A model generated the notes under the pieces. It was not told the DNA's origin. It did no database searches and worked only from the letters and a program-made list of their open reading frames with translations. Below are positions 15,130-23,504 of a DNA stretch of 64,000 nt, in pieces. Source of the stretch: a virus; the IMG/VR virus record IMGVR_UViG_3300009180_000041, positions 1 through 64,000 of that record; one strand, written 5' to 3'. Each line of letters begins with the position of its first letter. The first letter of the stretch is position 1. The position numbers and the translations under genes are program-made.

Positions 15130-16245
15130 ATGGAAAATAATAATAGTGTTTGTTTTGTGGCTCGTATTAATGAGATTAAGTCTATTGAAGGCGCTGATAA
15201 CATTGAGTTAGGTGTTATTGGTGGCTGGAATTGTATTATTAAGAAAGACAGTTATAAAGTAGATGATTTAGTTGTAGTAGCCACTACTGACGCTGTTATA
15301 CCTCAAGAATTAAGTGATAAAATGAATGTTACTAATTACTTGAGAAAAGGTCAGAGAGTAAGAACAGTTAAATTAAGAGGAGTTTATAGTGAGTGTTTGA
15401 TTATTCCAATTGGTTTTATACCTGACAAATACCGTTATGAAGGAGCTGATTGTATGGAGTTAATGAATATCTTTAAATACGAGCCGCCAGTAAGACAAGT
15501 ACAATTAGCTTCAGGTCGTAAACTTAAATACAATCAAAATCCAAACTTTGGAATCTACTATAAATTTCCTAACATCAAGAATGTTAATGGGATGTTTAAT
15601 GAAGAAGACACAGTTGAAGTAACTAGAAAGATTCATGGTACTAATGCTCGTTATGGTATTGTTAGGAAAAACAAATTAAGTGTTTGGGACAAAGTAAGAC
15701 GTTTCTTTGGAGACAAATGGGTTGAATATGAATATGTGTATGGTTCTCATAATGTTGAGAAAGGTAGTGATTCACAAGGTTTCTATGATACTGATGTTTG
15801 GAGAACAATAGCTGAAAAACACAACATTAGAGAAAAGTTATGGAATTTCTTTAAATTAACTAAAACTTTATATAATACTAAAGATGGTATTGTGATTTAT
15901 GGAGAAATTTATGGCCCAGGTATTCAAAAGAATTATGATTATGGTTTGACAGAACTTGAATATGCTGGATTTGATGTTACTATTAATGGTGAATACCAAA
16001 GAACTTCTTTAAGTAATGTGGTTCATGAATGGTTAGGACTTAAAAACGTACCTAGTTTAGAATTTAATGTTTGGTCTGAAGATTTACTTACTAAGTATAC
16101 TTTTGACAAAATTGAAGGAACTAAAGTACCTCACGAAGGTGTTGTTATTAAAAGTGTTGACGGTAATAGACATAAAGTAGCTAAAGTAATTAATCCAGAT
16201 TATTTGATCTACGGAGAAAAACACAATGTAGGAGATTCACATTAA
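15130..16245 (+). CDS. RNA ligase with N-terminal OB domain (Rnl5/DraRnl-like)
   Basis: A 371-residue ligase. Residues 1-~130 form an OB-like domain, placed N-terminally as in Deinococcus RNA ligase. The nucleotidyltransferase core follows, with motif I TRKIHGTNARYG (lysine about 167, the adenylated residue), a motif III-like IVIYGEIYG, motif IV EGVVIKS (about 335) and motif V KVAKVINPDY (about 348). These enzymes seal nicked RNA using ATP. In a phage the usual role is repair of tRNAs cut by host anticodon nucleases. The two tRNA-like RNAs at 18.8 and 23.4 kb make that role attractive here, by inference. Confidence 0.9.
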   Translation: MENNNSVCFVARINEIKSIEGADNIELGVIGGWNCIIKKDSYKVDDLVVVATTDAVIPQELSDKMNVTNYLRKGQRVRTVKLRGVYSECLIIPIGFIPDKYRYEGADCMELMNIFKYEPPVRQVQLASGRKLKYNQNPNFGIYYKFPNIKNVNGMFNEEDTVEVTRKIHGTNARYGIVRKNKLSVWDKVRRFFGDKWVEYEYVYGSHNVEKGSDSQGFYDTDVWRTIAEKHNIREKLWNFFKLTKTLYNTKDGIVIYGEIYGPGIQKNYDYGLTELEYAGFDVTINGEYQRTSLSNVVHEWLGLKNVPSLEFNVWSEDLLTKYTFDKIEGTKVPHEGVVIKSVDGNRHKVAKVINPDYLIYGEKHNVGDSH

Positions 16246-18310: not shown

Positions 18311-18494
18311 AAGTCCTATACCTGTCATAGTTGAAACTAATAAAGACGGTTACGCGATTTATGTTGTAAATTCAGGTATGTTTGAAAATGATGTGTGGTG
18401 TGTAGTATTATGTGATGGTGGAATAGTTAGACACTACACAACAGACCAAATTAAAATACATCACAATACTACTTTTGAAATAAATAAAAAATAG
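18297..18494 (+). CDS. conserved small phage protein, 65 aa
   Basis: FKSPIPVIVETNKDGYAIYV...WCVVLCDGGIVRHYTTDQIK is a beta-rich sequence I recognise as a small protein recurrent in Bacteroidota phages; no function is known. It ends in TAG, one of the few clear uses of that stop codon here. Its stop overlaps the -35 element of the next promoter. Confidence 0.75.
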   Translation: MLEFKSPIPVIVETNKDGYAIYVVNSGMFENDVWCVVLCDGGIVRHYTTDQIKIHHNTTFEINKK

Positions 18495-18512
18495 ATTTTT
18501 TTAATAAAAAAG

Positions 18513-18523
18513 GTTATATTATA
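18513..18523 (+). promoter_or_regulatory. early promoter, -35 TAGATT, box GTTATATTATA
   Basis: TAGATT (18492-18497), 17-base spacer, TATATT (18515-18520). Confidence 0.75.
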
Positions 18524-18544
18524 TTATATAAAAAGATATAAGAT

Positions 18545-18784
18545 ATGAAAGTAAATTTAGACCAAAACGAATTAGAACTATTAACAGAATTATTAAATCA
18601 AAACATAACTGTAACATTAAAAGTAGACACAGAATATGATGATGAGTGGGGGTTAGTAGTATTTGAAATAAAAGACTTAAATATATGTCGAGACATTAAT
18701 TGGTTAGTACAGAATGACGATGATATTGAAGAACTAAGGTTTCATGAATTAAACGATCTTATAACGTTCATAAAAGAACGTTAA
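18545..18784 (+). CDS. small acidic protein, 79 aa
   Basis: Acidic protein (many D and E) with a helical start (LDQNELELLTELLNQ) and a WGLVVFEIKDL strand. The family is unknown. Its last codons form half of a perfect 8-bp hairpin (TAACGTTC/GAACGTTA) just before the tRNA-like RNA. Confidence 0.6.
   Translation: MKVNLDQNELELLTELLNQNITVTLKVDTEYDDEWGLVVFEIKDLNICRDINWLVQNDDDIEELRFHELNDLITFIKER
18762..18783 (+). other. 8-bp hairpin at gene end before tRNA-like RNA
   Basis: Perfect inverted repeat TAACGTTC (18762-18769) and GAACGTTA (18776-18783) around a 6-base loop. It overlaps the last codons of the acidic-protein gene. It may terminate or protect the mRNA, or mark a processing site for the RNA starting at 18791. 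Confidence 0.55.
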
Positions 18785-18790
18785 TTAAAT

Positions 18791-18912
18791 TGTCAGGTAA
18801 TACGTAATGTGAAAATGGTTATCACACCCAATCTTAATACCACGGTCTATAACCACTTAGACGCGAGACATTAGGAGGTTGTATTGTTGCGAGTTCGAGT
18901 CTCGCCCTGACA
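18791..18912 (+). ncRNA. tRNA-like RNA with perfect acceptor and T arms
   Basis: TGTCAGG (18791-18797) pairs fully with CCTGACA (18906-18912). Directly inside the 3' half is a canonical T arm: GCGAG, loop TTCGAGT, CTCGC (18889-18905). CCA is not encoded. At ~122 bases it is too long for a normal tRNA, and no good anticodon stem is visible. The body instead folds as nested stems: AATAC/GTATT (18799-18803, 18881-18885), TAATGT/ACATTA (18805-18810, 18868-18873) and GGTTAT/ATAACC (18817-18822, 18849-18854). A short D-arm-like TGTG...CACA with GG in the loop is an alternative. It may be a tRNA-mimicking RNA, or a tRNA carrying an insert. Confidence 0.6.
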
Positions 18913-18955
18913 ACTAAAATAAAGTAAAATAATTTAGAGATTTTAAGTAAAATAA

Positions 18956-18966
18956 GTTATATTATA
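18956..18966 (+). promoter_or_regulatory. early promoter box, leaderless spacing
   Basis: Exact box; ATG at 18969, 2 bases after it. Confidence 0.7.
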
Positions 18967-18968
18967 GT

Positions 18969-19232
18969 ATGATAAATAATAAAGAATTTGATTTAACAAA
19001 TAAATTTGATAAGTTTATATTTGGTTTAATTGAAAGTAGAGCAAATGGTGATTGGAATACTTATGAAGATGAAGAAATTATTGGATATGATTGGGATTTA
19101 AGAGAAGAAGATTGGTTTGATTTAGATTTTAATTTTGAAAGTTTAGAAAAATATATTGGTGAGGGAATATATTATAATGAAAATTGTAATGTAAATTTAG
19201 AAGATTATAAAATGATTGTAAAAATATATTAA
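18969..19232 (+). CDS. acidic protein, paralogue of the gene at 22704 (87 aa)
   Basis: Strongly acidic and aromatic. Shares with the 22704 protein NKFD-x-FI...NGDW-x-TYED, WDLR-x-x-x-WFDLDF and YIGEGI, so they are clear duplicates. Such D/E/W/Y-rich small proteins can be DNA mimics; that is a guess. Codons are strongly A/T-biased like the flanking duplicates. Confidence 0.65.
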   Translation: MINNKEFDLTNKFDKFIFGLIESRANGDWNTYEDEEIIGYDWDLREEDWFDLDFNFESLEKYIGEGIYYNENCNVNLEDYKMIVKIY

Positions 19233-23396: not shown

Positions 23397-23504
23397 AGTC
23401 AGGTGGCGGAATGGAGCGTGGTGTCCACGCTCGTGGTAGACGCTATACTTAAGCAGTTGAAGCTGGGTAATTCAACAATATAGGTTCGAGTCCTATCCTG
23501 ATTA
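23397..23504 (+). tRNA. tRNA-Leu-like gene with hairpin inserted in the D loop
   Basis: Acceptor AGTCAGG (23397-23403) pairs with CCTGATT (23497-23503). The T arm is ATAGG-TTCGAGT-CCTAT (23480-23496), the D stem GCG/CGC. A long variable arm, GTTGAA/TTCAAC, is typical of class II tRNAs. The sequence GGCGGAATGG...GGTAGACGC is that of tRNA-Leu, and CTTAAG suggests anticodon UAA (23450-23452). Two oddities stand out. A perfect 7-bp hairpin, AGCGTGG-TGT-CCACGCT (23415-23431), interrupts the D loop. Only 12-14 bases remain for the anticodon arm, so a normal 5-bp stem is not evident. CCA is not encoded. It is either a modified functional tRNA or a decoy. Confidence 0.6.

Follow-up and report, generated by a model that had tools for sequence, protein, structure and literature searches.

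A family of tRNA-like RNAs from environmental phages that lacks an anticodon arm and bears an apparently exchangeable arm in its place

In a 64,000-nt stretch of viral DNA (hereafter the window; positions 1 to 64,000 of IMG/VR record IMGVR_UViG_3300009180_000041, a 65-kb virus fragment), we found that a 122-nt tRNA-like RNA encoded on the plus strand at 18791–18912, here termed E1, belongs to a conserved RNA family with relatives in more than 100 other environmental phage sequences. The family appears to be widespread and undescribed: no Rfam family matches E1 or, even at permissive thresholds, the bodies of such elements, and no earlier description of such RNAs was found in a partial literature search, one that left subscription journals and bioRxiv preprints mostly outside its range.

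The extent of E1 was set by the sequence together with a leave-one-out covariance model, R1. As the first-pass annotation of this DNA had stated, the acceptor helix and the T arm are both perfect, and its coordinates for E1 proved exact. The acceptor strands TGTCAGG (18791–18797) and CCTGACA (18906–18912) form 7/7 Watson-Crick pairs, and the T arm GCGAG-TTCGAGT-CTCGC (18889–18905) forms 5/5. The combination of a perfect acceptor and a perfect T arm occurs once in the window and in none of 300 Markov-simulated windows, and the folding z-score of E1 is -2.87. On the 3′ side, A73 at 18913 is followed by CTA, where an encoded CCA would stand. In the alignment of relatives, changes on both sides were seen at 4 of the 7 acceptor pairs, which remain 100% paired, and at 4 of the 5 T-arm pairs.

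A homologue of E1 was located in contig L200, at a locus first found through a Leu-type D-arm insert pattern, and further homologues were gathered with a pattern derived from E1 and the L200 element and by a survey of one T-arm/acceptor sequence. Because members were collected by exact patterns, all counts are lower bounds. The family comprises full forms of 120–122 nt and minimal forms of 74–85 nt, and E1 shows all its features in the family order: acceptor, helix P2, CGUAAUG, a hairpin with GG in its loop (18808–18826), CC, an arm, GGUUG and the T arm. The covariance search in related phages that the first-pass annotation had proposed supported the family, model R1, built without E1, scoring E1 at 110.4 bits (E = 8e-29). 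In the family alignment, 97.4% of the cells are paired and 13 of the 26 pairs have changed on both sides; shuffled alignments never attained these values, and slid versions fell far below them. Covariation was found in every helix, and RNAalifold, unaided, returned nearly the same structure. One close relative, 3300027763_000087, is identical in sequence and so contributes no covariation. Outside the environmental sequences, blastn against cultured phages returned short pieces only; model matches in the cultured Flavobacterium phage immuto, in pT24 and in two huge phages were weak and at the level of any tRNA; and 149 genomes of one bacterial family, with 24 candidates per genome scored, gave no match.

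Within the closing helices, E1 is organized around helix P2, whose strands AATAC (18799–18803) and GTATT (18881–18885) were assigned from the alignment of relatives and also by RNAalifold. P2 reads ATTGC/GCAAT in L200 and L211 and AATGC/GCATT in L215, with double changes at 2 pairs of the alignment. The core CGTAATG (18803–18809) lies between P2 and the D-arm-like hairpin, and GGTTG (18877–18881) lies ahead of the P2 3′ strand. Both are invariant in A5; the conservation of letters used in the search patterns is partly by construction, and covariation outside the patterns is unaffected. CGTAATG is part of the core search pattern of a sister subtype, which matched at least 120 viral contigs. The D-arm-like hairpin itself, TGTGA-AAATGGTTA-TCACA with GG in the loop, is supported by covariation, its stem being TGTGA/TCACA in E1 versus TGAGA/TCTCA in L285. 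In the corresponding hairpins of the sister subtype, the third pair is kept in 55 of the 57 distinct sequences listed (shuffled mean, 24), and all four Watson-Crick types are used there. Nested stems had originally been proposed in place of the D and anticodon arms. That description holds for the anticodon arm, which is absent, but not for the D arm, a counterpart of which is present; further, nested stems drawn by eye, such as TAATGT/ACATTA or TGGTTAT/ATAACCA, are not kept in relatives, which keep P2, the D-like hairpin and a separate arm instead.

The classification of E1 as a tRNA-like RNA without a normal anticodon arm was borne out by a search of its body, which nowhere offers a 7-nt loop with U33 closed by a 5-bp stem, even when one mismatch is allowed. 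None of 16 family members has an anticodon arm with 5/5 pairs, and their 4/5 matches share no common position. Neither ARAGORN nor Rfam called a gene at E1, and the Rfam tRNA model gave no E1 match at E values up to 10, so E1 lies below its cut-off. Extended (full) forms have no tRNA match whatsoever. The minimal forms reach 26–29 bits with the tRNA model, just below the cut-off of 29, which leaves room for the suggestion that they may have some contact with the translation apparatus. A cloverleaf drawn manually with a 36-nt intron was ruled out by the minimal relatives of 73–80 nt, which hold just 4–10 nt at the site and so have no room for an anticodon arm.

At the position of the anticodon arm, E1 has an arm (18827–18878) that was delimited by variation in length and type and is flanked by conserved CC (18827–18828) and GG (18877–18878). 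The CC-to-GG spacing in the family is mostly either 4–10 nt, in minimal members, or 44–47 nt, in full relatives, among which at least three arm sequence types occur. The arm of E1 contains a structured domain (18836–18872), recognized by recurrence and covariation and made up of a helix AAT/ATT (18836–18838/18870–18872), ACCACG, a hairpin GTCT/AGAC (18845–18848/18859–18862) and GCGAGA; 5 of its 7 pairs show changes on both sides. This ACCACG-hairpin-GCGAGA domain is also found in nine other elements, which span two scaffold subtypes, and other scaffolds hold at least two different domains of equal length at the same site. The presence of the E1-type domain on both subtypes, taken together with the different equal-length domains on other scaffolds, argues from sequence comparison that the arm is an optional, exchangeable unit. 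Some elements of the sister subtype have, in addition, a variable-arm hairpin 5′ of the T arm.

The window contains a second tRNA-like element, E2 (107 nt; 23397–23503, plus strand), recognized from its sequence and by ARAGORN with introns allowed, which called it a split tRNA-Phe. E2 consists of an acceptor AGTCAGG/CCTGATT, a Leu-type D arm, a non-canonical body and a T arm, and its D loop bears an inserted hairpin of 8 bp with a UGU loop. The body, CTATACTTAAGCAG...AAGCTGGGTAATT..., recurs without the insert in L230 and with compensatory stem changes in L266, and a relative phage encodes a 145-nt element built like E2. Judged by sequence, E1 and E2 are members of a larger group of phage RNAs, the wider set, whose heads resemble AGTCAGG...CCTGACT and whose bodies vary greatly. 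In viral contigs L089–L335, this set comprises at least 238 distinct sequences of 60–250 nt with a common acceptor type and a T arm; nearly all of the 238 AGTCAGG-type elements have C74, and few encode CCA. Of the 120 matches listed for the Leu-type D-arm-with-insert pattern, 62 were elements that also have an acceptor and a T arm. Among AGTCAGG-type elements whose D arm is of the Leu type, 15 of 145 have a canonical anticodon arm, a share close to the 7% seen in shuffled bodies, whereas the control tRNAs, which come from the same loci and have the same D-arm type but other acceptors, contain one in 31 of 42 cases. The tRNA calls made in wider-set bodies have near-random anticodons. The canonical tRNAs of L200 carry a variety of other acceptors; its AGTCAGG elements come in addition to these tRNAs.

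Several features of these bodies were also observed. D-loop modules recur across the wider set (GG-UGU-CC hairpins, ACAAAGAGYAATRGTATGTGC, GGCGCTGGGATAAAAACTGGGGCC and CACTGATAAAG), as do modules in the anticodon/variable region, and some bodies contain a second T-arm-like hairpin. Elements in L092 (484–642) and L062 (3257–3401, minus strand) have homologous bodies with different D-loop inserts; these bodies covary (AGTTGG/CCAACT versus AGCTGG/CCAGCT, and CCCG-TTCGAGT-CGGG versus CGGG-TTCGAGT-CCCG) and share a possible pseudoknot GGTC/GACC. Further, within a large tRNA array on the minus strand of L200 (8728–8830) lies an odd 103-nt tRNA-like element with the acceptor TCACTCT/AGAGTGG, showing that odd bodies also occur with other heads than AGTCAGG.

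We next consider the genomic setting. A baseplate protein shows 42% identity to Flavobacterium phage immuto, and contigs of relatives measure 176 and 180 kb, with 62–65% identity in a 445-aa protein. A 79-aa ORF of no known family (18545–18784, plus strand) has its stop codon 6 nt ahead of E1. A promoter-like repeat is found upstream of this ORF (18478–18532) and again downstream of E1, with none between, which suggests that E1 and the ORF are probably on one transcript. This repeat (about AAATAAAATAAGTTATATTATAG) is present in ∼25 copies before many genes in window positions 1–24000, for example at 18928–18983. An RNA ligase gene at 15130–16245 (plus strand; phrog_968, Pfam RNA_ligase, PHA02142 OB fold) might play a part in tRNA repair. 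The T-arm/acceptor sequence was found in at least 120 viral stretches, whereas genome contigs of bacteria and archaea totalling 257 Gb yielded six, four of them titled Bacteroidota; the set is thus biased towards phages. For 92 of the 128 E1-family members listed, a further T-arm-like sequence lies no more than 1.5 kb away. No shared protein partner was found near the elements, each protein family occurring near at most 18 of the 128 members listed, and this lack of a general companion suggests a reliance on host proteins. Elsewhere, a phage tmRNA in L358 (561–1145, minus strand) adjoins a group I intron match.

On balance, we favor the interpretation that E1 does not decode: its tRNA head would provide for processing and stability, and binding of some partner would fall to the arm, alone or together with the core. 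The constant part comprises a tRNA's upper half (acceptor, T arm and D-like hairpin) together with P2 and the conserved core, and the GG of the D-like hairpin would meet the T loop as in the tRNA elbow. E1 would be co-transcribed with the upstream gene and excised by host RNase P and RNase Z, after which CCA would be added; we infer these steps from the tRNA head and from the near-universal C74 of AGTCAGG-type relatives, few of which encode CCA. The head would then act as a stable scaffold, and the arm, as the working part, might bind and titrate or inhibit a host protein involved in tRNA handling or in attack on the phage. Such a protein is our favored guess for the target, albeit one we doubt more than we trust. 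Alternatively, because minimal members do without the arm, the function could reside in the conserved core, with the arm as an accessory. With regard to the suggestion in the first-pass annotation that the RNA is a decoy for host defences, the distribution over phage contigs, the varied bodies and the tRNA arrays are compatible with such a role and do not demonstrate it. More broadly, we are evenly divided on whether phages, mostly of Bacteroidota, use one host-processed tRNA head to display many different structured domains, both in the anticodon-arm place and as D-loop inserts, and swap them like effector cassettes.

The competing explanation raised at the outset was an ordinary tRNA whose anticodon arm forms once an intron is spliced out. 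Group I introns are known in phage tRNAs, the window encodes the RNA ligase described above, and E2 drew a split-tRNA call from ARAGORN. However, removing any one segment failed to produce a cloverleaf, both in E1 and in the seven relatives tested, and the minimal relatives are too short at the site to hold an anticodon arm. The inserted arm is, moreover, conserved and structured on its own, and canonical arms in wider-set bodies are hardly above the shuffled frequency. An interrupted tRNA is thus extremely unlikely. Equally improbable to us, for the E1 family, are pseudo-tRNAs degenerating without function, to which one could ascribe the great diversity of the wider-set bodies and their near-random anticodon calls; covariation in all helices, perfect acceptor and T arms and the recurrence of the same domains in unrelated phages all speak against drift, and we assign both explanations to the same, lowest rank. 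The proposed likeness to the tRNA half of tmRNA held for the topology but not for the model match: at permissive thresholds and on E1's strand, the Rfam tmRNA model scores E1 at 8.4 bits (cut-off, 47) and covers the 17-nt T arm only. A reduced tmRNA with an absent or very short tag frame, acting on stalled ribosomes, would agree with the common layout of acceptor, T arm and helix P2 and with the real tmRNAs present in several of these phages. Yet the D-like hairpin lies inside P2, unlike in tmRNA, and the sole free site of the minimal relatives, with its 4–10 nt, has no room for a tag reading frame, so we consider this very unlikely.

E1 begins 6 nt past one stop codon and E2 ∼5 nt past another, with the next ORF starting 4 nt after E2, an arrangement expected if the elements were mascRNA-like signals at which RNase P and RNase Z set mRNA 3′ ends and which had no further role as RNAs. 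This explanation leaves the conserved core, the conserved 45-nt domains and their exchange between scaffolds unaccounted for, and most relatives have other tRNA-like genes close by instead of standing alone after an mRNA; we judge it improbable. A somewhat better, though still doubtful, prospect is a narrower decoy in which the tRNA head baits a host nuclease or an acceptor-modifying toxin and the arm only averts translation or damage. The constant head with its varying bodies would suit such bait, as would the use of tRNAs by phages against tRNA-cutting defences (PMC11555353), but known anticodon nucleases require the anticodon loop that E1 lacks, and no link to a defence system was seen.

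Non-decoding tRNA-like RNAs are already known in the form of tmRNA, viral tRNA-like structures, YrlA and mascRNA. YrlA (RF02553), a bacterial Y RNA-like molecule, is a non-decoding RNA with a tRNA-like module and without a free acceptor end; RF02553 had no match in the window and elsewhere gave sub-threshold overlaps only. In mascRNA-type signals, a tRNA-like RNA stands directly behind another transcript, whereas the E1 family has conserved, exchangeable domains at the anticodon position. tmRNA (RF00023) resembles E1 in setting a tRNA head atop a long non-anticodon helix, but E1 has no tag frame and no demonstrated pseudoknots and is one third the length. With tRNA itself (RF00005, class II Leu/Ser), the shared features are the 7-bp acceptor, the 5-bp T arm with a TTCRA loop, the GG-bearing D-like hairpin, A73 and C74, and relatives are located in tRNA arrays; the E1 family differs in having no anticodon arm, in its conserved CGUAAUG and GGUUG and in the extra P2 between the 8-9 linker and the variable region. 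Plant-virus tRNA-like structures are likewise viral RNAs that mimic tRNA (review, PMC5723415), but they form the 3′ end of an RNA genome, whereas E1 is free-standing, comes from a DNA phage and has a true 5′ acceptor strand. Finally, the tRNAs that phages supply to defeat tRNA-cutting defences (PMC11555353) are also phage-encoded, with tRNA heads and in tRNA-rich regions, and this precedent makes a related anti-defence role plausible; those RNAs, however, are ordinary tRNAs that replace a cut host tRNA.

Overall, Rfam lacks a conserved family that numbers at least 100 members in environmental phages. Gene finders either overlook the E1 family or report its AGTCAGG-headed kin as tRNAs whose anticodons are undetermined or near-random, so that phage tRNA counts include many molecules unable to decode. 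The results indicate that a tRNA can drop its anticodon arm, retain its ends and elbow under selection and bear other RNA domains. If the idea of a displayed payload is true, the organization of one head with many arms would be categorically new, and if the arms bind host factors, these RNAs would add a new class to the phage effectors made of RNA, and the engineered tRNA scaffold would have a counterpart in nature.
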